From assembly GCF_026410505.1 (NCBI RefSeq), contig NZ_JAPMIU010000001.1, positions 248,001-312,000 on the forward strand: DNA of 64,000 nt, written 5' to 3'. A model generated the notes under the pieces. That model searched no databases. It saw only the letters and a list, made by a program, of their open reading frames with translations, and was not told the DNA's origin. The translations under genes were made by a program, and so were the position numbers. This document shows, piece by piece, positions 23,585 to 38,103 of this stretch (its first letter is position 1; every line of letters begins with the position of its first letter). The DNA is from Frateuria hangzhouensis. Its GTDB lineage: Bacteria > Pseudomonadota > Gammaproteobacteria > Xanthomonadales > Rhodanobacteraceae.

Positions 23585-24477
23585 GCCAGCATCCTCTCCA
23601 CCGGCAATACGAACATCTCGCGCGCGCCGGCCTTCTTGATCTCCTCCAACTGGCGCCAGCTAACCTCGCCAGCGCACAGCGCCTGCAGCATCACCTGGTC
23701 CGGCTGCCCGGACAGCGGCAGCAGTGTCGGTTGCGGCCCACCGGGCAAGAGGCGGGTGATCGCGTCCAGCGAGCCGCGCGACGCCTGCAACAGCAACAGG
23801 CGCGACTCGCGCACCTGGATTACCCCGTCGATGCGCTTGAGCAGCAGCTCGACCAGGTCGCCGCGCTCGTCGGCCGGCAACACCTGCGGGCCGACCAGCA
23901 GCGCCTCGCTTTCCAGCACCACCTCCGCTTCGCGCAACTGGTTGGCCATCAGCGTGCCGCCGCTCTGCACCAGATCGCAGATGGCATCGGCCGTACCCAG
24001 CCGCGGCGCAATCTCCACGGAACCGGCCAGCGTCAGCACGCCGGCATCGATGCCGTGCTTGCGCAACCAGCGCCCGAGCAGGCCCGGATAGGACGTGGCG
24101 ATGCGCCGGCCGGCCAGGTCGGCGGCGCCGGCGTAAGCCAGTTCCTGTGGCACCGCCAGCGACAGCCGGCAGCGGCCGAAGCCCAGCGGCCGCCATTCCG
24201 CCAGCGCGACGGCATCGGCCTGTCCGGCGGTCAGTTCGTACTCGTTGAGCACGTTGCGCCCGACGATGCCCAGGTCGCAGACGCCCTGCGCGATCAACCC
24301 GGGAATGTCGTCATCGCGCACCAGCAGCAGGTCTACCGGCTCGCCCTCGCCGAAGCAGAACAACTTGTCGCGGCTCTGCCGGAACGTGAGACCGCAACGG
24401 GTCAACAGATCCCGTGCCGGCTCGGTCAGCCGGCCCGACTTCTGCATCGCGATGCGCAACCGATCGCGCGGCCTCAT
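23581..24477 (-). CDS. hisG: ATP phosphoribosyltransferase, long form
   Basis: HisG joins ATP and PRPP in the first committed step of histidine synthesis and is the usual target of histidine feedback. At 298 residues it is the long form, with a C-terminal ACT-like regulatory domain (from about residue 220, [19 protein letters not shown] onward) and no need of HisZ. The catalytic part shows [38 protein letters not shown] and the PRPP-binding [14 protein letters not shown]. The start overlaps the regulator's stop (ATGA), so synthesis of the first enzyme is coupled to the regulator. Confidence 0.97.
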
Positions 24478-24806
24478 GCCCGTGCCTTGGCGGTCTTGCG
24501 CTTGCGTGCCGCGCGCGCCGCCGCCGCGAGATAGCCGCCGTTGCCCTGGTTGAGGTACCGCGCCACCCGCCCGATGGTGGTGATGCTCACCCCCGTGCGC
24601 TCGTGGATCTCCCGGTAGGACAACTCCTCCAGCAGGTACGGCACCACCCGCCAGCGATCCACCATCGCCTCCAGCTCCGCCGGCGTGCACAGGTCATGCA
24701 GGAACGCCTGCATCTCGTCCACCTCGCGCAACGCCAGCAGCGCCTCGCATAGGCTTCGCTCCACCGACTCGTTCGGGGTCTCGGGGTCGATCGCTCGTCG
24801 CTTCAT
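24474..24806 (-). CDS. TrpR/YerC-family transcriptional repressor leading the his operon
   Basis: This 110-residue protein has the TrpR-like helix-turn-helix: CTPAELEAMVDRWRVVPYLL followed by SYREIHERTGVSITTIGRVARYLNQGNGGY. The tail is Ala/Lys/Arg-rich. TrpR-superfamily proteins dimerise and bind palindromic operators with an amino acid corepressor. Its place as first gene of a his operon, overlapping hisG, implies a histidine-responsive repressor that controls its own operon; I recall that comparative genomics names such a xanthomonad regulator HisR. A near-perfect 18-bp palindrome lies three bases before its ATG. The effector and function are inference from context. Confidence 0.88.
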   Translation of the reverse strand: MKRRAIDPETPNESVERSLCEALLALREVDEMQAFLHDLCTPAELEAMVDRWRVVPYLLEELSYREIHERTGVSITTIGRVARYLNQGNGGYLAAAARAARKRKTAKARA

Positions 24807-24809
24807 AAT

Positions 24810-24867
24810 GTACTAACGCGTTAATACAACAGGCGGCAAATGTAGACGATGATGGGGCGCGACGCAA
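24810..24867 (-). promoter_or_regulatory. his operon promoter and 18-bp operator
   Basis: On the minus strand TTGCGT (24867-24862) and TACATT (24844-24839) form a promoter with ideal 17-bp spacing. Downstream, 24810-24827 reads GTACTAACGCGTTAATAC on the plus strand, an 18-bp palindrome broken at one base pair. It resembles the E. coli Trp operator in its outer GTACTA/TAGTAC half-sites. It would span about +4 to +22 and ends three bases before the regulator ATG; no ribosome site is visible, so bound repressor would cover the whole leader. Confidence 0.7.
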
Positions 24868-25014
24868 GTTCTAGGAGGTCCAGTCGAAGTCTCCGATTCT
24901 GACGATCTTTCGCCGCGGCTGAGTCGCGCTGAAAGCCATCCGCCCATCCGGTGGTAAGGCTTTTCCGACGACACGAATGTCCTGCGGATTACGTTACAAA
25001 CTGAAGCGTCAGGC

Positions 25015-25070
25015 TTGTCGTGGACATCGGCGGCGGCTGTAATGATCCCGCGTTCAATTGATGTGAACGC
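25015..25070 (+). promoter_or_regulatory. Predicted T4SS promoter with 21-bp palindrome
   Basis: TTGTCG (25015-25020), a 17-bp spacer, and TGTAAT (25038-25043) resemble a sigma-70 promoter. Immediately downstream, at the expected start site, GCGTTCA (25050-25056) and TGAACGC (25064-25070) form a perfect inverted repeat with a 7-bp spacer. The core also fits the T-N11-A pattern of LysR-type sites. Location over +1 suggests a repressor site. No CpxR-type GTAAA-N5-GTAAA box, known upstream of the Xanthomonas citri system, was found. Confidence 0.5.
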
Positions 25071-25141
25071 TTGCTGCCAACGGGCCGCTCCCCTCGCACC
25101 GGAGCGATCTGCTTGAAGATGGATTGGACAGGGGAGTCTGA

Positions 25142-25297
25142 ATGGAAGCGCTATCTCGTGCCGTGCGGAAGCTGAGGCTTTCCGCCGCCCTCGCGACGAA
25201 ATTGGCAAGCATGGACGATCGTTTCGCTTGCGCATGTGCCCGCCGATGCGACCGCCTGCCATCGCTGCTGCCGATCGCCTGCTCCAGCTTTTCCTGA
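25142..25297 (+). CDS. Possible small leader ORF upstream of virB7 (unproven)
   Basis: An ATG preceded by GGGGAG at five bases opens a 51-codon frame (begins MEALSRAVRKLRLSAAL) ending with TGA. It is rich in Cys, Arg and Ala and resembles no family I know. The position in the long T4SS leader and the good ribosome site are the only support. It could be a chance frame, a leader peptide or a small regulator; I consider chance most likely. Confidence 0.2.
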   Translation: MEALSRAVRKLRLSAALATKLASMDDRFACACARRCDRLPSLLPIACSSFS

Positions 25298-25400
25298 TGC
25301 GCCCGGCCTGGGCCTAGGCGCGGTTCTGCCGCGTCCGTGCCGGCGCGCGCCGACGTCATTCGCCACGCGGCTGACAGCCGCCTTCACTTGCGAGTACCAC

Positions 25401-25901
25401 GTGAACAAGGTTTCTCCGAACCGAATCCTGGGAACCCTGCTGCCGGCCCTCCTGCTGGCAGGCTGCGGAACACCTGCCGCCAAGGACTTCGGCGGTCACT
25501 GGAAACCGGTCAACCGTTTCCAGTCGTCCACCACCGAGATTCCGTTGAACCGCCCCTACACCTACTACGCCTCGCCGATGGACGAGACGCTGCGAACCAT
25601 GCTGATCCGATGGACCAGCGATACCGGCATGACGCTGGTCTATCGCATGCCATCCGACTACACCCTGTTCGCGCCGGTCACCAAGGTCCGCACCGGCGAC
25701 ATCCGCCAGGCAGCCAGCAAACTCAGCGCGATCTACGCGGCCCAGGGCGTGTCCATTACCGTCGCGGACGGACGCCTGCAGGTCGATCGCGCCAGGACGC
25801 TGGGTTCCCGGACCAAGCCACGCGATCCGGTTGCACCGTCGCAGGCAGCAACTGAGCGCACGACGACCGCCTCTCCCGAAACCAGCGGCGGAGCCCGCTG
25901 A
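25401..25901 (+). CDS. virB7: T4SS outer-membrane lipoprotein VirB7 with N0-like domain
   Basis: VirB7 anchors the T4SS core complex in the outer membrane and binds VirB9. The 166-residue precursor begins at GTG and has a lipoprotein signal with lipobox LLAGC (lipid-accepting Cys22). It is followed by DFGGHWKPVNRF, a VirB9-binding-like segment, and a globular domain of about 75 residues (MDETLRTMLIRWTSDTGM through SITVADGRLQV) resembling the N0 domain of secretins. A VirB7 with an N0 domain is the known hallmark of the Xanthomonas antibacterial T4SS; classical VirB7 has only about 50 residues. A Thr/Pro-rich tail of about 35 residues follows. It overlaps virB8 by one base. Confidence 0.9.
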   Translation: MNKVSPNRILGTLLPALLLAGCGTPAAKDFGGHWKPVNRFQSSTTEIPLNRPYTYYASPMDETLRTMLIRWTSDTGMTLVYRMPSDYTLFAPVTKVRTGDIRQAASKLSAIYAAQGVSITVADGRLQVDRARTLGSRTKPRDPVAPSQAATERTTTASPETSGGAR

Positions 25902-26761
25902 TGCGCGCCCGCAAGACCGGTCCCGGCAGGGTCGGGGAAGCCGTCTCCAGGGCGGTCAACTACGAACTCACAATCGCCGACATCGCCCGCCGCAGCGAGC
26001 GCCGGGCGTGGTGGGTGGCTTTTTCTGGCCTGGGCATGTCGCTGATCCTCGCCGGCGGCTACTTCTACATGTTGCCGCTCAAGCAAAAAGTGCCCTACCT
26101 GGTGATGGCCGATGCCTACACCGGTACCAGCACCGTGGCGCGGTTGACCGGGGACTTCAGCCATCGCCGGATCAGCACCAGCGAGGCGATCAACCGCAGC
26201 AACGTCGCCCATTTCGTGATGGCCCGTGAGTCCTACGACCTGGCCCTGCTCAACCTGGGCGACTGGACTACGGTGCAGACCATGGCCTCGCCGGGCGTCA
26301 AAGCGGCCTATACCCGGCTCTATTCGTCGATGAACCCGGACAGTCCCTACAAGACCTACGGGAAGGACAAGGCCATCCGCGTCAAGCTACTCAGCATCGT
26401 GCTCATCGGCGCCGGCAAGGGCCGCACGCCCACCGGCGCCACCGTTCGTTTCCAGCGCAGCCTCTACGACAAGCAGAGCGGCGCCAGGCAACCGCTGGAC
26501 AGCAAGATCGCCACGATGGAATTCACCTACAAGGCGAATCTGGAAATGGACGACCGCAACCGGATCGAGAACCCGCTCGGGTTCTGGGTCACCAGCTACC
26601 GCGTCGACAACGATTACGCCACGCCTGCGCCCGCCGAGATCCCCGCCGTTTCCGCGGCGCCGGCGACACCACAGGCCTTTGCCGCCTCGCAGTCTTCGCC
26701 CGCCTCCGGCCCTCTCCTGGCGCCGACGCCGGCTACCGCCGCCAACGGAGTGATCCAATGA
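25901..26761 (+). CDS. virB8: T4SS inner-membrane protein VirB8
   Basis: VirB8 is a bitopic inner-membrane assembly factor of the T4SS. The 286-residue protein has a cytoplasmic N-terminus, one membrane segment (about residues 37-59, WWVAFSGLGMSLILAGGYF) and a periplasmic NTF2-like domain with the conserved SPYKTYG and the YRVDNDY strand end. The last 50 residues are a Pro/Ala/Ser-rich tail. The ATG overlaps the virB7 stop, and its own stop overlaps the virB9 start. Confidence 0.93.
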   Translation: MRARKTGPGRVGEAVSRAVNYELTIADIARRSERRAWWVAFSGLGMSLILAGGYFYMLPLKQKVPYLVMADAYTGTSTVARLTGDFSHRRISTSEAINRSNVAHFVMARESYDLALLNLGDWTTVQTMASPGVKAAYTRLYSSMNPDSPYKTYGKDKAIRVKLLSIVLIGAGKGRTPTGATVRFQRSLYDKQSGARQPLDSKIATMEFTYKANLEMDDRNRIENPLGFWVTSYRVDNDYATPAPAEIPAVSAAPATPQAFAASQSSPASGPLLAPTPATAANGVIQ

Positions 26762-27525
26762 TCCGGCATCCCCTTGCCGTGGCGGCCATGCTGCTCTGCG
26801 TAACCGGTATCGCCGTTCCGATGCACGTCCAAGCACAAGTCGTACAGCAGTACGAATACCAGCCGGACCATATCTATCCGGTACGCACCGGCCTCGGCAT
26901 CACCACCCAGATCGAGCTCAGCCCGAACGAGCAGATCCTCGACTACAGCACCGGGTTCAGCAGCGGCTGGGAACTCACCCGCCGCGACAATGTGTTCTAC
27001 CTGAAACCGAAAAACGTGGACGTCGACACCAACATGATGGTGCGCACCGCCACCCATTCCTACATCTTCGAGCTGAAAGTGGTGGCGACCGACTGGAAGG
27101 TGCTGGACCAGGCCAGGCGCGAAGGCGTGCAGTACAAGATCACCTTCGCCTACCCGGCCGACACCAGCTTCTCCAAGGAGAAGAAAAAGGCCGCCGCGGC
27201 ACCGCCGCTCGACACCCACCTCGTCCCCGGGCGCAGCTACAACTTCGATTACGACTACGCCACGCGCAGCAAACGCGCGCCATGGCTGGTGCCCGCGCAC
27301 GTCTATGACGATGGACGCTTCACCTATATCCGGATGAGCGACCTCAAACGCTTCCCCACCGGCAACTTTCCGGCGGTCTTCATGCGCGAGACGGCGCACG
27401 GCGAGGACTCCCTCGTCAACACCACCGTCGAAGGCAACACCATCGTCGTCCACGGAACTTATCCCTACCTCGTCATCCGCCACGGCGACAACGTCGTCGG
27501 CCTGCGAAGGAACGCCGCCGAGTGA
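26758..27525 (+). CDS. virB9: T4SS core protein VirB9
   Basis: VirB9 forms the T4SS core-complex layers with VirB7 and VirB10. The 255-residue precursor has a signal peptide (cleavage likely after HVQA, near residue 26), an N-terminal beta domain including TQIELSPNEQILDYSTGFSS, a linker with SKEKKKAAAAPP, and a C-terminal beta-sandwich (YNFDYDYATRSKRAPWLVPA to the end) that by family knowledge binds VirB7. Overlaps with virB8 and virB10 show tight coupling. Confidence 0.94.
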   Translation: MIRHPLAVAAMLLCVTGIAVPMHVQAQVVQQYEYQPDHIYPVRTGLGITTQIELSPNEQILDYSTGFSSGWELTRRDNVFYLKPKNVDVDTNMMVRTATHSYIFELKVVATDWKVLDQARREGVQYKITFAYPADTSFSKEKKKAAAAPPLDTHLVPGRSYNFDYDYATRSKRAPWLVPAHVYDDGRFTYIRMSDLKRFPTGNFPAVFMRETAHGEDSLVNTTVEGNTIVVHGTYPYLVIRHGDNVVGLRRNAAE

Positions 27526-28712
27526 GCACGCAGATCCCCTATGAGGCCGCCGAGGGCGCAAACGCCGGTCATGGCGAAGCGCTGGCGGACAATCCCTATT
27601 CCACGCACTACCAGCAGCCGGCCCCGCCGGACCTGGATGCGGGCGCGCCGCGACTGAGGTCGAACGAACTGCGGCGGATGAACCGGCGGGCGCTGCTGAT
27701 GCTCGGTTCGGCCGTGGCGCTGCTGTTGTTCGTCTCGTACTGGATGATCAGCAGCGCCACCTCGCGCCACGAACCGCGCAAGATCAGGGACGAGAAGGTC
27801 ACCGTGGCCGATGCACCATCGGCCCTGGCCCTCCCGCCCGCGCGCAAGCCCGAAACCCGACCGATTCCGCTGGCCCGTCAGGCGGCGCTGCCGCCCCTGA
27901 CGCTTCCGCCCCAACCGCGGTCTACCGATTCGCTCATACAGGCGCCGCCGGCCTATGCGGCGCACGAACCCTCGCTGGTCGAGCGGCGGATCGCCGGCAC
28001 ATCAGACCCCGTGGCCAACCTGTCGTCCACGCCGCCGGGCGCGCCACCCCAGGCGGCCGCAAGCCCCCTGCTGTCCAGCCGCGTGACCGCGACCAAGGCC
28101 AAGCCGCTGGAGCACGCCGACGCGCTGATGCAGCGCGGCACCTACATCCGTTGCGTGCTGGAAACCCGGATCGTCACCAACGTGCCCGGCTATACCTCCT
28201 GCCTCGTCACCGAACCGGTGTACTCGTTCAACGGGCGCAAGCTGCTGCTGCCCAAGGGCTCCAAGGTACTCGGCGCCTATTCAAGCGGCCCCAAGGGCCG
28301 CCGCGTCGCGGTCGTGTGGGACCGCATCATCACGCCGACCGGCGTGGACGTAGACATGAGCAGCAAGCCTAGCCCCGGCATCGACAACCTGGGCGGCGCC
28401 GGCCTGCCGGGCCACTACGACGCGCACTGGGGAAGCCGCATCAGCGCCGCGCTGCTCATCAGCATGCTCAGCGACGCCTTCAAGTACGAGGCGGCCAAGC
28501 ATGGTCCCACCACGTCCTCGATTGCCACCGGCGGCGTAGTCGTGCAGGAGCCGTTCGAGAGCAACACCGCGCGCACCGTCCAGAACCTTGCGGACATGGC
28601 CGTACGCGAAGCCGCCAACCGGCCGCCCACGGTGACCATCAACCAGGGCACCGTGATCTACGTCTACGTCGCCCGCGACGTCGACTTCAGCGACGTCGTC
28701 GCGCGCTTCTGA
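27522..28712 (+). CDS. virB10: T4SS core and channel protein VirB10
   Basis: VirB10 spans both membranes and links energising ATPases to the outer-membrane pore. The 396-residue protein starts at a GTG overlapping the virB9 stop. It has a cytoplasmic N-terminus, one membrane segment (about 57-77), a proline-rich periplasmic stretch (about 92-150) and a C-terminal beta-barrel domain. Conserved C-terminal pieces include GTYIRCVLETRIVTNVPG, GRKLLLPKGSKVLGAYSS, RVAVVWDRIITPTGVDVDM and the late IATGGVVVQEP. The antenna helices that insert in the outer membrane are expected around residues 290-330. Confidence 0.95.
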   Translation: MSTQIPYEAAEGANAGHGEALADNPYSTHYQQPAPPDLDAGAPRLRSNELRRMNRRALLMLGSAVALLLFVSYWMISSATSRHEPRKIRDEKVTVADAPSALALPPARKPETRPIPLARQAALPPLTLPPQPRSTDSLIQAPPAYAAHEPSLVERRIAGTSDPVANLSSTPPGAPPQAAASPLLSSRVTATKAKPLEHADALMQRGTYIRCVLETRIVTNVPGYTSCLVTEPVYSFNGRKLLLPKGSKVLGAYSSGPKGRRVAVVWDRIITPTGVDVDMSSKPSPGIDNLGGAGLPGHYDAHWGSRISAALLISMLSDAFKYEAAKHGPTTSSIATGGVVVQEPFESNTARTVQNLADMAVREAANRPPTVTINQGTVIYVYVARDVDFSDVVARF

Positions 28713-28720
28713 ACAGGCTC

Positions 28721-29770
28721 ATGGAAGACACCCTCGCCCTCGTTTCCAACGAATTCCTCGACTACCAGTACGAGGTGCTGGGCGTGCGCGAGTTCATGGC
28801 CTCGCCCGAGGTCACCGAGATCTGTATCAACCGGCCCGGCGAGCTTTACCTGGAAAGCCGTGGCGGCTGGCGGCGGGTGGACGTGCCCTCGTTGACCTTC
28901 GAGCGGGCGCGCCAGTTCTGCACCGCCGTAATCAACGAAAGCAACACCGGTCAGCGCATCACCGACGTCGACCCGGTGGTGTCGCTGACCTTTCCCACCG
29001 GCCAGCGCGCCCAGTTCGTCATCCCGCCCGCCTGCGAGGCGGGCAAGGTGTCGATCACCATCCGCCTGCCCTCGAAGCAGGCCCGCACGCTGGACCAGTA
29101 CCAGGCGGACGGCTTCTTCGACCAGATCCTGGAGGATGCGCGCGAGCTCGGCGAGGAAGACCGCGAGCTGCTGGACCTGCGTGCCCAGCGCCGCTACGCC
29201 GAATTCTTCAAGGCCGCCGTGCGCAGCAAGAAGAACATCGTGGTGTCCGGCGCGACCGGCAGCGGCAAGACCACCTTCATGAAATCGCTGGTCCACCACA
29301 TCCCCGCTGCCGAGCGCCTGGTGAGCATCGAGGATGCCCGCGAGCTTTTCATCAGCCAGCCCAACGTGGTCCACCTGCTCTATTCCAAGGGCGGACAGAG
29401 CACCAGCAACGTGACCGCGAAAAGCTGCATGGAAACCTGCCTGCGCATGAAGCCCGACCGCATCATCCTGGCCGAGCTGCGCGGCGACGAGGCGTTCTAT
29501 TTCATCCGCAACTGCGCGTCGGGCCACCCCGGCTCGATCACCAGCTGCCACGCAGGCAGCACCGAGCAGACCTGGGACCAGCTGGCCCTGATGGTCAAGG
29601 CCTCCACCGAGGGCGCCGGCCTGGAGTTCGCAACCATCAAGCGGCTACTCCGGCTGACGATCGACATCGTTGTGCACATCAAGGCGCATGCCGGGCAGCG
29701 ACACATCACCGGCATCGACTTCGACCCTGCGCGCGGCTTCCTGCAAGACGCACCGCCACCAGCGTGCTGA
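28721..29770 (+). CDS. virB11: T4SS hexameric ATPase VirB11
   Basis: VirB11 is a cytoplasmic traffic ATPase that powers pilus assembly and substrate transfer. The 349-residue protein shows Walker A GATGSGKTTF (residues 177-186), the Asp box SIEDARELF, Walker B RIILAELRGDEAF and the His box CASGHPGSITSCHA. The N-terminal domain begins VREFMASPEVTEICINRPG. It follows virB10 by 8 bp without a strong ribosome site. Confidence 0.95.
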   Translation: MEDTLALVSNEFLDYQYEVLGVREFMASPEVTEICINRPGELYLESRGGWRRVDVPSLTFERARQFCTAVINESNTGQRITDVDPVVSLTFPTGQRAQFVIPPACEAGKVSITIRLPSKQARTLDQYQADGFFDQILEDARELGEEDRELLDLRAQRRYAEFFKAAVRSKKNIVVSGATGSGKTTFMKSLVHHIPAAERLVSIEDARELFISQPNVVHLLYSKGGQSTSNVTAKSCMETCLRMKPDRIILAELRGDEAFYFIRNCASGHPGSITSCHAGSTEQTWDQLALMVKASTEGAGLEFATIKRLLRLTIDIVVHIKAHAGQRHITGIDFDPARGFLQDAPPPAC

Positions 29771-29788
29771 CCGACGAGGAACCAAGGG

Positions 29789-30601
29789 ATGGTCCCCGCA
29801 CTCAATCCGATGTCCTGCCCCGACCTGGCGGTTCCGGCCGAGGTCATGCAACACGTCGTCCAGGTCGAGTCCGGCGGCAACCCGTTCGCCATCGGCGTCG
29901 TTGGCGGCCGGCTCGAGCGCCAGCCACGCAAGCTCGAGGAGGCCATCGCCACCGCACGCATGCTCGAGTCGAAGGGATACGATTATTCGCTCGGCATCGC
30001 CCAGATCAATCGCGGCAACCTTTCACGCTATGGGCTCGAATCCTTCGAGAAGGCCTTCGACGCCTGCACCAACGTCGCCGTGGGGGCACGCATCCTGGCC
30101 GAGTGCTACAGCCGGTCCGACAGCGACTGGGGCAAGGCCTTCAGTTGCTATTACTCGGGCAACTTCACCGCCGGCTACCGCGATGGCTACGTGCAGCGGG
30201 TCTTCGCGTCGCTCGGAGGCGGCGTGCCCGACAGCTCGGCGCCGATAACCGTCCACCCGCAGGCGACGGAACACCCTTCCGGCCACAGAACCCCGGCCGC
30301 GCGCGCCGGGAAGCCCGGCAGTGCCGCCTATCGCGTCTCGATCCGTTCGGTGGCCATCGACCCGACTGGCGGCGCGCTGGTGTCCGCCCCCACGGGAACG
30401 ACCGCTCCTGCGCAAAGTCCCGCGCCCGACACGATTCCATTACCCGCGATTCCCAAGGCCACCGACACCATCGCCTCGGCATTCGTACCCCGCGTGAGCG
30501 GCCCCGGCGATCGACCCAATGAACCTCTCGTTCCTGCGGCACCCACGGGAGCGCCGCCTCCACCGGATCAGGAGATAGCCGATGCCGCGTTCGTCTTCTG
30601 A
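29789..30601 (+). CDS. virB1: T4SS lytic transglycosylase VirB1, no visible signal peptide
   Basis: VirB1 opens peptidoglycan for T4SS assembly. The N-terminal 150 residues form a transglycosylase SLT domain with catalytic Glu in VVQVESGGNPFAIGVVGG (Glu27 from this start) and the motif YSLGIAQINRGNLSRYGL, followed by a Pro/Ala/Thr-rich tail to residue 270. Neither this ATG nor the one at codon 8 (MSCPDLAVPAE) gives a hydrophobic export signal, which is unusual for a periplasmic enzyme. Export may use the T4SS itself or a non-classical route. A purine-rich GAGGAACCAAGGG precedes the start. Confidence 0.9.
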   Translation: MVPALNPMSCPDLAVPAEVMQHVVQVESGGNPFAIGVVGGRLERQPRKLEEAIATARMLESKGYDYSLGIAQINRGNLSRYGLESFEKAFDACTNVAVGARILAECYSRSDSDWGKAFSCYYSGNFTAGYRDGYVQRVFASLGGGVPDSSAPITVHPQATEHPSGHRTPAARAGKPGSAAYRVSIRSVAIDPTGGALVSAPTGTTAPAQSPAPDTIPLPAIPKATDTIASAFVPRVSGPGDRPNEPLVPAAPTGAPPPPDQEIADAAFVF

Positions 30602-30722
30602 CCCGTGTGCCCGAACACGCATGCCCTTGTCCCGAATCCGGCTGCCCGATGGGAAGCCATCCATGAAGCGCCCATGGCCCGATGGCCGCTGTTGCCAACC
30701 CGTCCCACGAGGAAAAATCAAG

Positions 30723-31130
30723 ATGGCCAAGAACCTGCCTGCCAACCCGAACGCCCGCCACCCGATCCGCAGCGGAGCTGCCCTGTTCATCGCCCTGGCG
30801 ATGTGCCTGGCGTTGGCGCTGCCCGGCATCGCGCTCGGCCAGGACGTCACCGACACCATTGCCACCACCTGCGGTTTCGCCAGCAGCGTCAACAAGATCC
30901 TGAACGCGATCTCGATCATCGTCGTGACCATCGCGATCGTCTTCTCGGGCTACCAGATCGCCTTCGCCCACAAGCGCATCTCCGACATTTCTCCCGTGCT
31001 GATCGGTGCGGTGCTGATTGGCGCCGCGGGCCAGATCGCCAAGATGTTCCTTGCCGGCAGCACCAGCGCTTCGGGCGCCACCGCGTGCACGGCCAGCCTG
31101 GTCACCCACGTACTCAATTTCTATGCATAA
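30723..31130 (+). CDS. virB2: T4SS pilin-like subunit VirB2
   Basis: VirB2 is the pilin-like T4SS component. The 135-residue precursor has a signal peptide of about 40 residues with a long polar N-region, ending around LALPGIALGQDV. The mature part of about 93 residues has two hydrophobic segments (ILNAISIIVVTIAIVFSGYQ and VLIGAVLIGAAGQIAKMFL) split by the short basic loop AHKRISD, the VirB2/TraA layout. I chose the ATG at 30723 because GAGGAAAAATC precedes it. The stop overlaps the virB3 start. Confidence 0.9.
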   Translation: MAKNLPANPNARHPIRSGAALFIALAMCLALALPGIALGQDVTDTIATTCGFASSVNKILNAISIIVVTIAIVFSGYQIAFAHKRISDISPVLIGAVLIGAAGQIAKMFLAGSTSASGATACTASLVTHVLNFYA

Positions 31131-31431
31131 GGATGCATTGTTTCGCGGCTGCACCCGCCCGCCCATGTTCATGGGCGTGCCCTACGTGCCGTTCTTCATG
31201 GCCGCGGGCGGGTGCATGTTGCTGGCGATGTATTTCAACCTGTTCTTCCTGCTGCTGATCCCGCCGGTGATCTTCGTGATGCGCCAGATGGCGCGGCGCG
31301 ACGAGATGATTTTTCGCCTGCTCGGGCTGCGCCTGCAGTTCCGCACCCGGGTCAAGAACCTCGGGGAGAACGACGGCATGTGGGTGTTCACGCCCAACAT
31401 CCACCGCGGCCAGTCGAAGGCCAATCCGTAA
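31123..31431 (+). CDS. virB3: T4SS inner-membrane protein VirB3
   Basis: VirB3 is a small inner-membrane protein that works with VirB4. The 102-residue product starts MHKDALFRGCTRPPMFMGVP, the typical VirB3 opening, and has two adjacent hydrophobic segments (about residues 22-60) ending in VMRQMARRDEMIFRLLGLR. The start lies inside the 3' end of virB2 (8-bp overlap). A strong hairpin follows the stop before virB4. Confidence 0.92.
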   Translation: MHKDALFRGCTRPPMFMGVPYVPFFMAAGGCMLLAMYFNLFFLLLIPPVIFVMRQMARRDEMIFRLLGLRLQFRTRVKNLGENDGMWVFTPNIHRGQSKANP

Positions 31432-31438
31432 CGTCACC

Positions 31439-31466
31439 GCCGCCCTGGTTTGCCGACCAGGGCGGC
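31439..31466 (+). promoter_or_regulatory. Perfect hairpin between virB3 and virB4
   Basis: A perfect 10-bp stem GCCGCCCTGG / CCAGGGCGGC with loop TTTGCCGA lies 8 bp after the virB3 stop and 16 bp before the virB4 ATG. It has no T tract, so it is a better candidate for an RNA-processing or translation-control hairpin than for a terminator. It occurs where the operon passes from the abundant pilin to the large ATPase. Confidence 0.6.
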
Positions 31467-31481
31467 CACCGGAACCTGCAC

Positions 31482-33962
31482 ATGTCCAAGCCCGCCTTCC
31501 TGCCCGATACCCCCATCAGCGAGCTCTTGCCGCTGTCCACCCACGTGTCGCCCACGGTGCTCAAGACCACCGGCGGCGACTTTCTGATGGTCTGGCGGCT
31601 GGGTGGCTTGCCCTTCGTGGGGCGCGAGGAATGGGACCTGGAGCATCGCCATGCCACCTTCAACCGCATGTTGCAGACCCTGCGCGCGCCCGATTTCGTC
31701 AACGTCGCGTTCTGGATTCACGATGTGCGCCGCCGCCGGCGCATCGCCGACCGGGGCCGTTTCGTCCAGCCGTTCAACCAGGCCCTGTCGGAGGCCTATT
31801 ACGAAGCGCTGTCGAGCCAGAAGCTCATGCAGAACGAGCTCTACCTCACGATGCTCTACCGGCCCGTGGTCAGCGGGAAAAAATTGGCCGAGAAGCCGAG
31901 CGACGTTAGCCGGCTCGAGGCCGAACAGCAGCAGGCCGTGGTCACCATCCTGGAGCTGGCGGGCAACGTCGAGGCCGTACTCAAGGACTACGCGCCCCAC
32001 CGCCTGGGCATGTACGAAGCCGCCAACGGCGTGGTGTTCTCCGAAGCGCTGGAATTCTACGGCTACCTGCTCAACCGGCTGGACGAGCCCGTGCCAGTGC
32101 TGCCCGCACCGGTCTACAACTACCTGCCGGTAAGCAAGCAGCGATTCTCCGCCAAGACCGGCGATTTCGTGGTAACCACGCCGCAGGGCGTCAATCACTT
32201 CGGCGCCATCCTCAACATCAAGGAATACACCGACGGCACCTACCCCGGCATCCTCAACGGCTTGAAGTACCTGGGCTTCGAATACGTCATCACGCACTCC
32301 TTCAGTCCCATGGGCCGCCAGGATGCCCTCAAGGCGCTGGACCGCACCAAGGGCATGATGGTGTCCTCCGGCGACAAGGCGTTCAGCCAGATCGCCGAGC
32401 TGGACCTGGCGATGGACCAGCTGGCGTCGGGCAATTTCGTGCTGGGCGAGTACCACTTCACCATCGCCATCTACGCGCCGAGCCAGGAAGCGCTGTCGCA
32501 GCAGATCGCCGCGACCCGCGCGGAGCTGTCCAACGCCGGCTTCGTCTCGGTCAAGGAGGACCTCGCCGTCACCGCCGCCTTCTACGCGCAGCTGCCAGGC
32601 AACTGGAAGTACCGCACCCGCCTGGCCAACGTCAGCTCACTGAACTTCCTGGGCCTGAGCCCGCTGCACAACTTCGCCATGGGCAAGCGGGAGAACAACC
32701 CCTGGGGGGACTGCGTCACCACCCTTCAGAGCACCAACGGGCAGCCTTATTACTTCAACTTCCACGCCACCCATCCGGCCGAGAATTCGCTGGGCGAGAA
32801 GGCCATCGCCAACACGATGGTGATCGGCAAATCCGGCACCGGCAAGACCGCGTTGATCAACTTCCTGCTGAGCCAGGTGCAGAAGTTCGAGCCGGCCCCG
32901 ACCATCTTCTTCTTCGACAAGGACCGCGGCGCGGAGATCTTCGTGCGCGCCTGCGGTGGCAATTACCTTGCGCTGGAAAACGGCAAGCCCACCGGCTTCA
33001 ACCCGTTCCATTGCGACCGGACCGAGGCCAACGTCCAGTTTCTGGCCGACCTGGTCAAGGTGCTGGCAGGCAAGAGCGTTTACAGCTCGCGCGAGGAGGA
33101 GGACATCTTCCGCGCCGTCGAGAGCATGCTCGACACACCCATGCGCCTTCGCAGCATGACCAACTTCCAGAAGAGCCTGCCGAACCTCGGCGACGACGGC
33201 CTGTTCATCCGCATGCGCAAATGGACGGCCGGCAATTCGCTGGGCTGGGTGTTCGACAACCCGGTCGACACGATCGACCTGGAGAAGGCCAGCATCATCG
33301 GCTTCGACTACACCGAAATCATCGACAACCCGGAAGTGCGCGCGCCGGTCATCAACTACTTGCTGCACCGCCTGGAGGCGCTGATCGACGGCCGACCGCT
33401 GATCTACGTGATGGACGAATTCTGGAAAATCCTCGATGGCAAGGGGGGCCTGAAGGAGTTCGCCAAGAACAAGCAGAAGACCATCCGTAAGCAGAACGGT
33501 CTGGGGATCTTCGCCACGCAGAGCCCCGAGGACGCGCTGGCCAGCGACATCGCCGCAGCCCTGGTCGAGCAGACGGCCACGATGATCCTGTTGCCCAACC
33601 CCAATGCCAGCCGCGAGGACTACATCAACGGCCTGAAGCTGACCGAAGCCGAATACCAGGTGGTTGTCAGCCTGGACGAGCGATCCCGTTGTTTCCTGGT
33701 CAAGCAGGGCCACGCCAGCGCTGTCTGCCAGCTCAACCTGCGCGGCATGGACGACGCCCTGGCGGTGATCTCCGCCTCCACCGACAACATCGACATCATG
33801 CATCGGGTCCTGCACGAATGCGCCACCGCCAAGGGCGTGCCGGCCGATGCCTTGCGTCCCGAGCAATGGCTCGAACTGTTCTATGCAAGTCGCAAGGGCA
33901 GCGGCAAGGGCCGGTCCCATGCATCGCCTGCGGCCGGCGCAGCTTTCGCAACGGCCCATTGA
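31482..33962 (+). CDS. virB4: T4SS ATPase VirB4
   Basis: VirB4 is the largest T4SS ATPase, needed for pilin mobilisation and secretion. At 826 residues it is a standard VirB4 (not fused to VirB3). Walker A is IGKSGTGKTALINF (GKSGTGKT at 449-456) and Walker B is YVMDEFWKIL (Asp645, Glu646). The conserved NNPWGDCVTTLQ and the late GIFATQSPEDALASDIAAAL are also visible. I chose MSKPAFLPDT because the upstream extension would translate the intergenic hairpin. The start is 50 bp after virB3. Confidence 0.96.
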   Translation: MSKPAFLPDTPISELLPLSTHVSPTVLKTTGGDFLMVWRLGGLPFVGREEWDLEHRHATFNRMLQTLRAPDFVNVAFWIHDVRRRRRIADRGRFVQPFNQALSEAYYEALSSQKLMQNELYLTMLYRPVVSGKKLAEKPSDVSRLEAEQQQAVVTILELAGNVEAVLKDYAPHRLGMYEAANGVVFSEALEFYGYLLNRLDEPVPVLPAPVYNYLPVSKQRFSAKTGDFVVTTPQGVNHFGAILNIKEYTDGTYPGILNGLKYLGFEYVITHSFSPMGRQDALKALDRTKGMMVSSGDKAFSQIAELDLAMDQLASGNFVLGEYHFTIAIYAPSQEALSQQIAATRAELSNAGFVSVKEDLAVTAAFYAQLPGNWKYRTRLANVSSLNFLGLSPLHNFAMGKRENNPWGDCVTTLQSTNGQPYYFNFHATHPAENSLGEKAIANTMVIGKSGTGKTALINFLLSQVQKFEPAPTIFFFDKDRGAEIFVRACGGNYLALENGKPTGFNPFHCDRTEANVQFLADLVKVLAGKSVYSSREEEDIFRAVESMLDTPMRLRSMTNFQKSLPNLGDDGLFIRMRKWTAGNSLGWVFDNPVDTIDLEKASIIGFDYTEIIDNPEVRAPVINYLLHRLEALIDGRPLIYVMDEFWKILDGKGGLKEFAKNKQKTIRKQNGLGIFATQSPEDALASDIAAALVEQTATMILLPNPNASREDYINGLKLTEAEYQVVVSLDERSRCFLVKQGHASAVCQLNLRGMDDALAVISASTDNIDIMHRVLHECATAKGVPADALRPEQWLELFYASRKGSGKGRSHASPAAGAAFATAH

Positions 33963-33994
33963 TTGATCCACCGTCATTACGAGAGGAAAGCGCC

Positions 33995-34768
33995 ATGACC
34001 CACGTGCTCCCCCACCCGATGCGGCCGCGCCTGTGGGGCCAGGTCGCCCTGATCGTGGCCATACTCGGCGTTTCCATCGACGCGCCCCGGGCTCAGGTGC
34101 TGGTTACCGACCCCACCGCCATCGCGGCGAACGAGGAGGGCTTCAAGTCGCAGCTGGTCCAGAGCATGGCCGGGTACACCAGGCAAGGCCTGCAATTTGC
34201 GAAGCAGGTGGAGCAGCTCCAGCAATTGCTCATGACCGTAAAGGGCCTCGGCACCAATATTTCCTTTTTCTCGGCCAAGCTCGAACCGATCACCGACCCG
34301 ACTGAACTCATTGACCAGAATTGTCCAAGTGCCTCCGGTGGTTCCGTAATCGGCAGCCTGCTGACGTCCGCCGCGTCAGCTATCAGTGATCAAACGCCTA
34401 TCACGGTAGCCCAGCAGCAGATTTGCGCGAACATCACGGTGCTTCAAATCGACCAGTACAACCGCACGGTCAACATCGTCAATCAATTGGACCAATACAG
34501 CGGGACGTTGCAAAAGCTCAACAAACTGGCCAATCAAGTGAACACGCTCGGAACAACAAGCGGCGCGACTACCCAGGCTGCCACTCTCGACGCGACAACG
34601 TCCTATGCCACGCAGCATTGGCAAACGGCGATTGCGGGAGACCAGGCCATTATCGATGGTCTCAACAAGCAACAATCGATCCTGGCAAAGACGGCGTTAA
34701 GGGGACAAAACGTCTTGGGGACCGTGGTGCAGGCGGCCGCCCTGAAATCAGCGCTCTCCATCGATTGA
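33995..34768 (+). CDS. virB5: T4SS minor pilin VirB5-like protein
   Basis: VirB5 proteins sit at the T4SS pilus tip and can contact target cells. The 257-residue precursor has a signal peptide (ending near DAPRAQ, residue 35) and then mostly helical sequence: FKSQLVQSMAGYTRQGLQFA and KQVEQLQQLLMTVKGL, then LNKLANQVNTLG. Position between virB4 and virB6 and the helical fold support VirB5; the sequence itself is divergent, as usual. From about 34240 the base composition is clearly less GC-rich than the neighbouring genes. GAGAGGAAAG precedes the ATG. Confidence 0.8.
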   Translation: MTHVLPHPMRPRLWGQVALIVAILGVSIDAPRAQVLVTDPTAIAANEEGFKSQLVQSMAGYTRQGLQFAKQVEQLQQLLMTVKGLGTNISFFSAKLEPITDPTELIDQNCPSASGGSVIGSLLTSAASAISDQTPITVAQQQICANITVLQIDQYNRTVNIVNQLDQYSGTLQKLNKLANQVNTLGTTSGATTQAATLDATTSYATQHWQTAIAGDQAIIDGLNKQQSILAKTALRGQNVLGTVVQAAALKSALSID

Positions 34769-34835
34769 TAGACACGGGCAAATCCACGCGCGTGTGGAAT
34801 GAGCGGCCCGGCGCAAAAGAAAGGAATCAGGCGCA

Positions 34836-35960
34836 ATGCCAACAAACCTCGCCGACTTTGTTTACTTCAGGCTGGTTTATGACTACCTGACTAAACAGAT
34901 CAACAATTTCGGAATGAATCTCATGGCGTCCTTCATGACGTGGGCGAGTGCATTGGCACTGCTCATGGTGACGCTATGGATCATGATCCAGGGCTACCGC
35001 CTCATCACCGGACAGTCGCGCGAATCGCTGATGGCCATGGTGATGAACATGACGCGTGTCGTCATCATCGTCACCGCCGCCACCACCATGTCGGTCTTCG
35101 GCTCCAATCTGCATCGGCTGTTCACCACGGACCTGAGTACCGGCATCAACCAGCTTTTCACCGGTAGCGACGAGACCGCTGCGGAAACCATCGACAAGAA
35201 CCTTGCCTGGACCCAGCTTGCGCTGGGCGCGATCGACGCGGTGCAGGTTGCGCCCGGTGATTTTGAGACAACCAAGCGCAAGGCTCACGCCATGCTCATT
35301 GCTGGATTGGGCACCGCCAGTCCGCCGATGGCAGCCGGGGCGATGTTGCTGCTCTACCAGACCACCATTGCCCTGTTCATCGGCTTGGGGCCGCTGTTCA
35401 TCCTTTGCCTCATCTTCGACCAGACCAAAGATCTCTTCCGCAAATGGCTGCTGTACGGCATTGGAACGATCTTCTCCATGGCCGCCCTGGGTTTCATCAG
35501 TTCGCTGGTGCTGCAACTGACCTTGCGCGTGGCGGCCGCATTCTGGTCGGCGAACCTGATCAACCAGTTGACCGGCTTAAGTAAGGAAGGGCTGTCCAGC
35601 CAGGCGCTGCAACAAGGCGGGATTGGACTGTTGATGACCGTGCTGATCATCAGCGTACCGCCACTGGCCGCGGCATTCTTCCAGGGGACCGTGGGCAGCT
35701 TCATGCATTACTCCGCCTTTGGCGGTGGCCCCGGCAGCCGTCCCGGGCCGCAGGGACAACCGCCGGGTTCCTATGTCGGATATGTCATGTCGCATGCACA
35801 ACACCCCATCCATGCGGGACAGCCGGGCGTTCGCCCGCAAGCCGCCTCCGGCCTGCACGGCAGGCCCTCGCCGGTTTCCGGCGCACGCGTGACAACCATG
35901 TCGCCTGTCATCCACGACGAGGCCATTCCCGTTCGCCCACATCCGCAATACCGGGTTTGA
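34836..35960 (+). CDS. virB6: T4SS polytopic inner-membrane protein VirB6
   Basis: VirB6/TrbL proteins form part of the inner-membrane T4SS complex. The 374-residue protein has about six hydrophobic segments between residues 28 and 290, with the conserved Trp-containing RKWLLYGIGTIFSMAALGF stretch. It ends in an 80-residue hydrophilic Gly/Pro/His-rich tail (from FGGGPGSRPGPQGQPPG) of unknown role. AAAGGA lies upstream of the ATG. Context and topology make the call; primary sequence of VirB6 is weakly conserved. Confidence 0.9.
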   Translation: MPTNLADFVYFRLVYDYLTKQINNFGMNLMASFMTWASALALLMVTLWIMIQGYRLITGQSRESLMAMVMNMTRVVIIVTAATTMSVFGSNLHRLFTTDLSTGINQLFTGSDETAAETIDKNLAWTQLALGAIDAVQVAPGDFETTKRKAHAMLIAGLGTASPPMAAGAMLLLYQTTIALFIGLGPLFILCLIFDQTKDLFRKWLLYGIGTIFSMAALGFISSLVLQLTLRVAAAFWSANLINQLTGLSKEGLSSQALQQGGIGLLMTVLIISVPPLAAAFFQGTVGSFMHYSAFGGGPGSRPGPQGQPPGSYVGYVMSHAQHPIHAGQPGVRPQAASGLHGRPSPVSGARVTTMSPVIHDEAIPVRPHPQYRV

Positions 35961-36012
35961 CCATGAGCATCACCCTAGCGAAATCTGTCTCAACAAGCGC
36001 CGGAGGAACGCC

Positions 36013-36339
36013 TTGAAACTACGCATCCGCTCCATTCTCCTGGTGGTCGGCACCGCCGCTACTGGCCTTACCACGGCTTCCGTCCGCGCCCAGAGCGTGG
36101 ATCCTTGCAATGTCTACACGTGCATGGCCGGCATCTCCGGCGCAGGTACAACCGGCGGCCCCGGCTGTGTACCGGCGACGACGTATTTTTTCAGTCTCGT
36201 CGTATTCGATCCGTTCTTCGATGCCGCGGCGACCTCGCAGTTGCGCAGGACGTACCTCATGACCTGCCCGGGTGCCAACGTCGCCACCAATGCCGCGTTG
36301 CTGAACGCCATCATCGCCGAATGGGGCGCAGTGCCTTAG
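36013..36339 (+). CDS. TrbM/KikA-like small exported T4SS protein
   Basis: This 108-residue precursor begins at TTG with a good GGAGGA site, has a signal peptide ending near VRAQS (residue 27), and a Cys-rich mature part: DPCNVYTCMAGISGAG, GGPGC, and RTYLMTCPGAN. The DPC-CMAG-C pattern is that of the TrbM/KikA/MpfK family, found in conjugation and Xanthomonas-type T4SS loci with unclear function. Four or more cysteines suggest periplasmic disulfides. It lies between virB6 and virD4. The TTG overlaps the TGA of a 17-codon frame starting at 35963. Confidence 0.78.
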   Translation: MKLRIRSILLVVGTAATGLTTASVRAQSVDPCNVYTCMAGISGAGTTGGPGCVPATTYFFSLVVFDPFFDAAATSQLRRTYLMTCPGANVATNAALLNAIIAEWGAVP

Positions 36340-36378
36340 GCGGCGAAGCAGACCTCTTCCCATGGACAAGCTGAGCTC

Positions 36379-38103
36379 ATGATCTTGCGCAACAAGGCCA
36401 TCGTCGCCTCCTTGGCTCTGGCGCTCGCTGTAGTTGCCGGGCTCTACGCATCCGGCTGGCTGGTCGTGGCGCTTCTGGATGTGCGCGTGCCACTCGATGC
36501 AGCCACCTACGGCCATTACCTTGTGGCGATCGGCAGGCCCGAAGTCGAACCCTACGCAGATCGCATCAAGCTCGCCGGTGGAGTGGGCTTCGGCCTGCCT
36601 CTGGCGGCCTGGGCGGTAATGCTCTACTTCATGTTCAGGCCGCGAGCACGCTCCACCCATGGCGATGCCCGGTTCGCCGCCCGAGGAGATCTGGCCCGGC
36701 TCGGCCTGCTCAACCAGGATCCGACCGGTATCATCGTGGGCAGGTTCGGCCGTCAGTTCCTGCGCATTCCCGGCACGCGCCACGCCCTGCTGGCGGCGCC
36801 GACGCGCAGTGGCAAGGGTGTCGGCGCGGTAATCCCGAACCTGCTCAGTTACCACGGTTCGATGGTCGTGCTGGACATCAAGCAGGAGGCCTTCGACATC
36901 ACCTCCCAGTGGCGTTCGAAGCTCGGCCCCACGTTCTTGTTCAATCCGTTTGCCGAAGACCTGCGCAGTCATCGGTGGAATCCGTTCGCTTATGTGCGTC
37001 CCGGCGCGGTCTACCGCACCTCGGACCTGCAGGCCATTGCCGATTGCCTTTACAAGGACCCGCCCAACCAGGACCCGTTCTGGGCAAACATGGCCCGCTC
37101 GACCTTCGTCGCGACGGCCAGCCTGTTGTTCGACTGCTGGGTGGACGGGGTCGACAAGGGATTCGACAAGAAAGACGGATACCCCACCCTGGGCGCCGTC
37201 TACCGCCTGCTCTCAGGTGATGGCAATGACTTGAAGGCACACCTGAAGACCGTGCTCGAACACCCGCATATCAGTCCGGGGACGCGCACCGCGTTTGCCA
37301 ACATCACCGCCCTGGCCGATCAGACCTTCACTTCGGTGATCGCGAGCACGCAGGCGCCGCTGCTGATCCTGGCCAATCCGATCCTGGACAAGGCCACGTC
37401 CGGCAACGACTTCTGGCTACCAGACCTGCGCCGGAGGGTGCAGTCGATCTACGTCGGCATTTCGCCCAGCAAGCTTACCGAGGCGGCCGGGCTGCTCAAC
37501 CTCTTCTTCAACCAGGCGATCAAACTCAACGTGGGCGTCACCCCGGACAAGGACCCCACGCTCAAGCACCAATGCCTGTTCATGCTGGACGAATTCACCG
37601 CACTCGGGCGGGTCGACGTCATGGTCGATGGCGTGGCCTATTTCGCCGGCTACAACGTGCGCGTGTTCTGCGTCATCCAGTCGTTGTCCCAGCTCGACGC
37701 GGTGTATGGCCCGGAAAAGGCCCGCAGCATGATCACCAACCTCGCCTGCCAGGTGATCTACACACCACGCGAGCAGCGCGACGCCAACGAATACAGCGAG
37801 ATGCTCGGCTATACCACCGAGCGACGGCGCCAGCGCACCCGTTCCAAGGGCGGATTCGGTCAAGGCAGCAGCGTGTCCTATGCGGAAGTGGAAGAGAAGC
37901 GCGCCCTGATGCTGCCGCAGGAGTTGAAGGGACTCGACCCCAGGAAGGAGATCGTGTTCATCGAAGGCACGCCGCACCCGATCCGCTGCGACAAGATCCG
38001 TTACTACGAGGATGGCTACTTCAAACCGCGGCTGCTGGGTGCCGCAAGCGTGCCCCGCCTGGCGATGGAACCCGAGCAGCGCGAAGCGGAAACGATCGGC
38101 TAG
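36379..38103 (+). CDS. virD4: T4SS coupling protein VirD4
   Basis: VirD4 recruits substrates to the T4SS; in the Xanthomonas system it recognises effectors carrying the XVIPCD domain. The 574-residue ATPase has two N-terminal membrane segments (about 7-35 and 70-90), Walker A APTRSGKG (140-147) and Walker B FMLDEFTALG (Asp404, Glu405). SVIASTQAPL and CVIQSLSQLDAVYG mark the conserved core. It is the last gene of the cluster, whereas in X. citri it is recalled at the opposite end, before virB7. Its stop overlaps the convergent lpxK stop by 4 bp. Confidence 0.95.
   Translation: MILRNKAIVASLALALAVVAGLYASGWLVVALLDVRVPLDAATYGHYLVAIGRPEVEPYADRIKLAGGVGFGLPLAAWAVMLYFMFRPRARSTHGDARFAARGDLARLGLLNQDPTGIIVGRFGRQFLRIPGTRHALLAAPTRSGKGVGAVIPNLLSYHGSMVVLDIKQEAFDITSQWRSKLGPTFLFNPFAEDLRSHRWNPFAYVRPGAVYRTSDLQAIADCLYKDPPNQDPFWANMARSTFVATASLLFDCWVDGVDKGFDKKDGYPTLGAVYRLLSGDGNDLKAHLKTVLEHPHISPGTRTAFANITALADQTFTSVIASTQAPLLILANPILDKATSGNDFWLPDLRRRVQSIYVGISPSKLTEAAGLLNLFFNQAIKLNVGVTPDKDPTLKHQCLFMLDEFTALGRVDVMVDGVAYFAGYNVRVFCVIQSLSQLDAVYGPEKARSMITNLACQVIYTPREQRDANEYSEMLGYTTERRRQRTRSKGGFGQGSSVSYAEVEEKRALMLPQELKGLDPRKEIVFIEGTPHPIRCDKIRYYEDGYFKPRLLGAASVPRLAMEPEQREAETIG

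Follow-up and report, generated by a model that had tools for sequence, protein, structure and literature searches.

Stem-loops that stand at the 5' end of a transcript, or within a few nucleotides of it, occur on the ompA and papA mRNAs of E. coli. In the part of PMC3997798 available to us, where the ompA and papA stem-loops are cited, structures at the 5' end are described as stabilising because both RppH and RNase E depend on 5' ends that are single-stranded. For virB operons the closest described leader is that of Xanthomonas citri, and the accessible sections of PMC7286519 report that CsrA represses virB through the 5' UTR in this species, that transcription starts 249 nt upstream of virB7 as mapped by 5'-RACE, and that GGA motifs are present at seven positions. 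The same sections describe an ORF in the leader as not conserved and devoid of a canonical ribosome binding site, and report that deletion of the first 72 nt, the first four GGA motifs included, did not significantly change the reporter. Loci of this type are described as encoding X-T4SSs that kill bacteria, and the published list includes F. terrea, according to the portion of PMC6536674 at hand.

The Frateuria locus shares with the X. citri operon, as presented in the accessible sections of PMC7286519, the virB7-first gene order, a GGA-containing leader and a sigma70-like promoter, with a predicted leader length of about 351 nt versus the 249 nt of X. citri. Unlike the Xanthomonas-like loci examined, which are without a 5'-terminal hairpin, the Frateuria leader adds two predicted stem-loops, here called SL1 and SL2. 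SL1 would resemble the ompA and papA elements in being a stem-loop that is predicted to stand at or near the 5' end; unlike these it is a predicted structure, it lies on an antibacterial type IV secretion operon, and several genera have the fold in spite of a changing sequence. Our literature search, in which sources were in part accessible, found no description of a virB leader hairpin. From comparative analysis and the analogy with ompA and papA we consider it moderately probable that the inverted repeat upstream of virB7 is a 5'-terminal stem-loop on the virB mRNA which hinders 5'-end-dependent decay, and this explanation is better supported than that of a DNA operator.

Promoter and inverted repeat in Frateuria

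The inverted repeat is located 351 nt upstream of virB7 in the X-type T4SS locus of Frateuria. The features are given below with positions in the window, i.e. the whole 64-kb stretch of DNA that was analysed.

24474-24806, minus strand: TrpR-like gene (Pfam), divergent and upstream of the virB operon
25015-25020, plus strand: -35 element TTGTCG of the best-scoring promoter of the region; identity 0.87 among five Frateuria
25038-25043, plus strand: -10 element TGTAAT, 17-nt spacer to the -35 element; identity 0.93 among five Frateuria
25050-25070, plus strand: inverted repeat GCGTTCA-ATTGATG-TGAACGC, the predicted 5'-terminal stem-loop SL1 of the virB mRNA
25078-25115, plus strand: predicted SL2 (CAACRGG...YCYGCUUG), from RNAalifold on five Frateuria leaders, columns 29-66
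25128-25136, plus strand: ACAGGGGAG, predicted Shine-Dalgarno sequence of the uORF and like the CsrA motif, conserved upstream of the uORF start
25142-25297, plus strand: uORF of 51 codons, start region conserved and body variable
25401-25901, plus strand: virB7, GTG start, first structural gene of the locus
25901-38103, plus strand: rest of the secretion locus, with VirB8, VirB9, VirB10, VirB11, VirB4, VirB6 and VirD4 among others (Pfam)

The rest of the secretion locus is presumed to be co-transcribed from the virB promoter, and Pfam assignments of ten proteins gave VirB8, VirB9/CagX, VirB10/TrbI, VirB11, VirB4, VirB6 and VirD4. With a generic matrix, TTGTCG-17-TGTAAT is the top sigma70-type promoter of the region, and six nucleotides (GATCCC) separate its -10 element from the repeat. 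The preliminary description had reported this promoter followed by a perfect GCGTTCA-N7-TGAACGC, and its letters and coordinates are correct; a sigma70-type promoter at this place is supported, and both hexamers are conserved across the five Frateuria.

The repeat has a single exact match, both in the window and in the whole genome, where inexact matches number zero at one mismatch and 10 at two mismatches; allowing up to three mismatches gives 5 matches in the window, where 5.05 are expected. By chance a 7+7 repeat is expected about 0.04 times in an intergenic region of ~600 nt with the given spacer, and ~0.4 times with any spacer of 3-12 nt. A single 7+7 repeat, taken alone, is unremarkable, and it is the conservation in relatives that raises this one above chance level. 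It is very unlikely that the repeat is fortuitous and was simply retained by descent: single repeats of this size are not rare per genome and the relaxed matches in the window show no excess, but the arms are conserved above the loop and the near flanks, and hairpins occur in positional excess across the family, as described below. The intergenic region (24780-25420) had no Rfam match at E values up to 1, and no plasmid relatives of it were found. A terminator or attenuator was rejected, as no T-run follows the repeat.

The genus comparison comprised six Frateuria genomes, F. flava and F. terrea among them, of which five carry VirB7; the remaining genome is 86% complete. The preliminary description had made conservation of the palindrome in close relatives decisive for its reading, and both arms are indeed identical in four of the five VirB7-bearing Frateuria, at 326 to 351 nt upstream of virB7. 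The gap between the -10 element and the repeat is 6-7 nt in these four full-stem Frateuria. The fifth, F. terrea, has the variant GCGCTCA-N7-TGAGCCC at this place, which keeps 6 of 7 pairs, one pair having changed on both sides (T-A to C-G) and one being broken. Pairwise identity among the five loci is 0.94 and 0.83 in the arms and 0.69 in the loop, compared with 0.63 in the -35/-10 spacer, 0.48 in the segment between the -10 element and the repeat, 0.41 in the distal upstream part, 0.46 in the uORF body and 0.51 in the part preceding virB7. Other parts of the leader are also highly alike, namely the segment just after the repeat (0.72), the surroundings of the uORF start (0.81-0.83) and the virB7 Shine-Dalgarno sequence (0.89). 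Among 671 windows of 7+N7+7 shape, identity in four of the five species was found at the repeat and the virB7 start only. The near-invariant stem within Frateuria (4/5) counts against the RNA interpretation to the extent that it is also expected of an operator.

Predicted folds gave a less uniform picture. When the first 41 nt are folded, SL1 belongs to the optimal structure in four of the five Frateuria; F. terrea has a weaker stem, and its optimal structure is a different one. The z-scores of single-strand folds of the Frateuria leaders range from -2.2 to +0.4, with F. terrea unfavourable, and such predicted folds are by themselves weak evidence.

Hairpins after virB promoters in the Rhodanobacteraceae

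The position of the start site was estimated from Xanthomonas-like loci with a CAAAGT -10 element, which belongs to the first-ranked promoter of the matrix. If +1 is placed at the seventh nucleotide after the -10 element, the GGA motifs at +42, +57 and +70 match in three of four loci, and the fourth needs a shift of one base. This rule, calibrated in the outgroup, gives predicted starts for the Rhodanobacteraceae and puts +1 at 25050, the first G of the Frateuria repeat, in agreement with the earlier placement of the repeat over +1; in three relatives with a 7-nt gap the predicted +1 is 1 nt before the stem. With the start at the seventh nucleotide, the hairpins would therefore begin at or next to +1. 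The Xanthomonas-like loci have no strong 5' hairpin (predicted folds of the first 30 nt between -0.1 and -2.7 kcal/mol), and the family hairpins folded alone give about -7 to -9 kcal/mol as averages by genus.

The exact start site, the folding in the cell and the effect on mRNA decay are what we infer. Transcription would start at or next to the first G of the repeat, and the virB mRNA would thus begin in a hairpin of 7 bp with a 7-nt loop, with hardly any nucleotide left unpaired at the 5' end. Judging from ompA and papA, such a hairpin should impede RppH as well as RNase E at its 5' sensor, and the 351-nt leader and the polycistronic mRNA would have a longer life. RNase E/G, RppH and CsrA are all encoded in the genome, with family matches over cut-off.

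VirB7 was found in 45 of 147 Rhodanobacteraceae genomes, and 50 upstream regions were analysed. The best promoter was chosen in each by the generic sigma70 matrix, blind to hairpins, and a hairpin was counted when it had a stem of at least 5 bp with at most one G·U pair, a loop of 3-8 nt and a start 4-9 nt after the -10 element. Two loci lay too near the end of their region, so that 48 were scored for the best promoter; the genus tally covers all 50. A hairpin follows the best promoter in 30 of the 48 loci, compared with 5.5±2.1 in dinucleotide shuffles (maximum 13; 0/300 reach 30), although the genomes are related and the counts are not independent events. When Frateuria is left out, the numbers are 25 of 43 loci and 4.9 in shuffles. 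The offsets from the -10 element peak at 6 nt (16 loci) and 7 nt (8 loci), together 24 of the 48.

Several controls were examined. Second-ranked promoters are at background (4/49), as are the best promoters of the Xanthomonadaceae (4/20). Third- and fourth-ranked promoters have hairpins in 12/49 and 11/49 loci, values reached by 1/300 and 13/300 shuffles; these controls are not clean, though the hairpin promoter of one locus (L010) is itself third-ranked, which would explain part of the excess. In 146 other intergenic regions of the Frateuria genome, delimited by crude gene calls (the longest ORFs from 300 nt upwards, without overlap), a hairpin was found in 29, at 6-7 nt in 11, and in 1 of the 20 with promoters scoring at least 7. 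The control in the Xanthomonadaceae is not clean either: a short hairpin is present after the third-ranked promoters in 8 of 19 Xanthomonadaceae loci (L095-L114), which none of 300 shuffles reach.

By genus, a hairpin after the best promoter was found in Frateuria (5/5), g10 (14/15), g4 (4/4), g19 (5/6), g18 (1/3) and g15 (1/1), and no such hairpin was scored in g3 (0/2), g21 (0/2), g20 (0/1), g13 (0/4), g22 (0/4) and g17 (0/3). For the g15 and g18 hits (L018, L031) the promoter lies downstream of the uORF start, and chance is their probable explanation, and one further hit (L063) is probably also at an unlikely promoter. The hairpin promoter does not rank first in the two g3 loci or in L013 of g21; in L059 it does, but the stem has two G·U pairs, which is over the limit; g3 and g21 do show hairpins with clade-aligned -10 anchors, which were chosen after the hairpins had been seen. 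Genus g10 includes Luteibacter. Since g19, g13 and g17 all include Dyella, the trait is split within Dyella. By this test the pattern is absent from g13, g22 and g17 and at background in the Xanthomonadaceae, which means that the hairpin is not required by the secretion system; on the sequences compared, it is a feature of some Rhodanobacteraceae genera.

Three further observations concern these promoters. Three Rhodanobacteraceae genomes (G025, G142 and G368) have two virB7-like loci, and in G025 both of them (L013, L059) have a hairpin after a CAGAAT box, anchored by eye. The virB promoters of several genera, in nine loci (L014, L017, L022, L025, L030, L010, L011, L013 and L026), have conserved letters in common just upstream of the -10 element (about TGCGKCASAAT); the letters exceed the need of a -10 element and may possibly reflect an activator or a sigma preference. 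For the g19-type promoters (GG...GC), sigma54 was weighed by eye as an alternative and rejected, the spacing being one base short.

The stems are unrelated in sequence between genera, as illustrated by CTCGAGG-TCTGGCT-CCTCGAG, GCGGAC-AGGG-GTCCGC, GGATGGC-CGA-GCCATCC and AGGGGT-CTGTACC-ACCCCT. In a catalogue of 35 stems of at least 5 bp the loops are 3-8 nt long and G·U pairs occur in 15; these counts are descriptive, as the -10 anchors were picked from clade alignments after the hairpins had been seen, the search admitted G·U pairs, so that their tally is partly a product of the method, and among the loci included (L040-L043 being some of them) L041/L050 and L042/L090 each seem to be one locus entered twice. 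Pairing was tested in g10 with the nine of 14 hairpins that are ungapped and of equal length (16 nt). Three of the six pairs have changed on both sides, and 92.6% of cells pair, compared with 86.5% in column shuffles (5/500 reach the observed value) and at most 52% with slid partners; the innermost pair fails in four of the nine. Base pairing is thus kept independently of sequence and at the same position across genera, though not in all of them. What this comparison of sequences shows is the promoter, the position, and a fold that is conserved although the letters that form it are replaced.

G·U pairs and varying loop length are tolerated by RNA, and generally not by a dimeric DNA-binding protein. 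The loop lengths of 3-8 nt and the presence of G·U therefore fit RNA better than an operator. Palindromes that overlap promoters are easily taken for repressor sites, and in this case the cross-genus comparison favours an RNA element; the combination of same position, changed sequence, G·U pairs and variable loop offers a cheap means to discriminate between the two.

Candidate operator sites and neighbouring regulators

The preliminary description proposed direct repression of the secretion locus by an unlinked regulator. An operator over +1 at which a dimeric repressor, LysR-type or not, would act on the virB promoter specifically is in our view unlikely. Such a site would account for the near-perfect arm conservation in four of five Frateuria, the centres of its TTCA/TGAA half-sites are 11 bp apart, which is one helical turn, and its position over +1 suits repression. 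Against it stand the unrelated sequences with varying loops and G·U pairs at the same place in sister genera, and the lack of a shared second site in the six Frateuria genomes. The sequence and spacing expected of an operator are kept within Frateuria (4/5) and not across genera, whose promoters also differ.

The preliminary description had also called for a genome scan for further sites. The whole palindrome is unique, and the exact core GTTCA-N7-TGAAC occurs at seven places in the six Frateuria genomes. Four of these places are virB promoters, and the remaining three, found in three different genomes, adjoin unrelated genes and have no common gene within 1.5 kb. Since no second site is shared, a regulator that has several targets, or that controls its own gene through the exact core site, is unlikely on these sequences; the scan covered the exact core, and degenerate sites or a single-target repressor fall outside its reach. 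With sister-genus hairpins that are unrelated as well, the proposed unlinked repressor is weakly supported at best. A near-match in L013 (CGGTTCAAAAGATGTGGACGG) was rejected as a distant copy of the operator, as it does not begin at a promoter start but some 50 nt before the uORF; L013 bears its own hairpin after CAGAAT.

LysR-type operators have the form T-N11-A. The likeness that was first noted is real in that the Frateuria repeat holds T-N11-A within an inverted repeat, but this carries little information because it follows automatically from TCA-N7-TGA. Unlike LysR-type operators, the repeat lies over +1, has no LysR-type gene in the window and has no shared further sites in the six Frateuria genomes searched. 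A LysR-type HTH (HTH_1) has 26 matches in the genome and none in the window, the nearest being about 40 kb from the site, which also weighs against a LysR-type operator, and a linked LysR gene, which for such sites is usually divergent, is absent.

The divergent neighbour is instead TrpR-like, with histidine genes, recognised by eye, beyond it, and this regulator is probably HisR-type. Immediately upstream of its gene is a near-perfect 18-bp palindrome, GTACTAACGCGTTAATAC (24810-24827), similar in all five Frateuria loci and with 0 matches in 100 shuffles at up to three mismatches, which is probably the regulator's own operator. The TrpR-like nature of the divergent gene and this palindrome of its own both count against a virB operator at the repeat.

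The CpxR box is GTAAA-N5-GTAAA. As had been stated previously, the repeat is not such a box: no match was found near the promoter, and the two CpxR-like motifs in the window, each with two mismatches, are both at 12.6-13.4 kb. The suggestion that regulation may thereby differ from X. citri has no basis in the literature on X. citri virB, as far as the sources were accessible, because the virB study points to CsrA, with the 5' UTR as its site of action, and a term search of its accessible sections gave no mention of CpxR (PMC7286519). No paper linking CpxR or CpxAR to the X. citri virB system was found in a search that was judged in part by title.

The remainder of the leader and CsrA

The CsrA motif is ACARGGA, which ACAGGGGAG resembles. 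RNAalifold on the five Frateuria leaders found SL1 in columns 1-21 together with SL2; 3 of 29 pairs have changed on both sides, and the covariation term of the whole structure is slightly unfavourable (+0.52 kcal/mol). The leader has GGA motifs and csrA is present in the genome, as predicted for a CsrA-controlled leader. CsrA binding in the SL1 loop was rejected, as GGA occurs in none of the five Frateuria loops.

It is distinctly unlikely that SL1 belongs to a larger CsrA-controlled leader in which its main effect would be on the binding of CsrA or a ribosome at ACAGGGGAG and the uORF start and not on 5'-end decay. The repression of X. citri virB by CsrA through the 5' UTR (PMC7286519, accessible sections), the presence of csrA and the conservation of SL2 and the uORF start beside SL1 are consistent with this. 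On the other side are the SL1 loops devoid of GGA and the 72-nt deletion in X. citri, which had no significant effect on the reporter in the accessible sections of PMC7286519 and therefore argues against an important role of the corresponding X. citri segment; in our own reading, this deletion also takes away the uORF start.

The 5'-terminal stem-loop that we favour as protection against decay could also be combined with such control. That the virB leader of the Rhodanobacteraceae forms one integrated post-transcriptional switch, in which the hairpin acts together with competition between CsrA and ribosomes at the uORF Shine-Dalgarno sequence, is a tentative and rather doubtful extension. If it were true, the 5' hairpin would close the default route of 5'-end decay and the fate of the operon mRNA would be decided downstream, where CsrA and ribosomes would compete for the ACAGGGA-like Shine-Dalgarno sequence of a uORF encountered again and again in much of the order; the sequence of the hairpin would be free to drift, but not its place. 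Our data suggest that an antibacterial secretion machine is controlled partly via mRNA life and translation in the Rhodanobacteraceae, and control at the mRNA level agrees with what was found for CsrA in X. citri.

The uORF itself is widespread. A Shine-Dalgarno sequence with an ATGGA start is located within 400 nt of virB7 in 37 of the 50 Rhodanobacteraceae leaders (0.7 in shuffles, maximum 3), and 32 of these 37 open an ORF of 40-60 codons (0.13 in shuffles). About 13 plausible uORFs of 42 to 78 codons were found among 20 Xanthomonadaceae loci, a count that leaves out one of 8 codons and one at -553. Within the first nine codons of the g10 uORF, differences are concentrated at the third position (361, versus 139 and 178 at the other two), but amino-acid-changing codon differences (280) exceed silent ones (159). 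The coding signal in these codon patterns is thus no more than suggestive, and the uORF may be translated.
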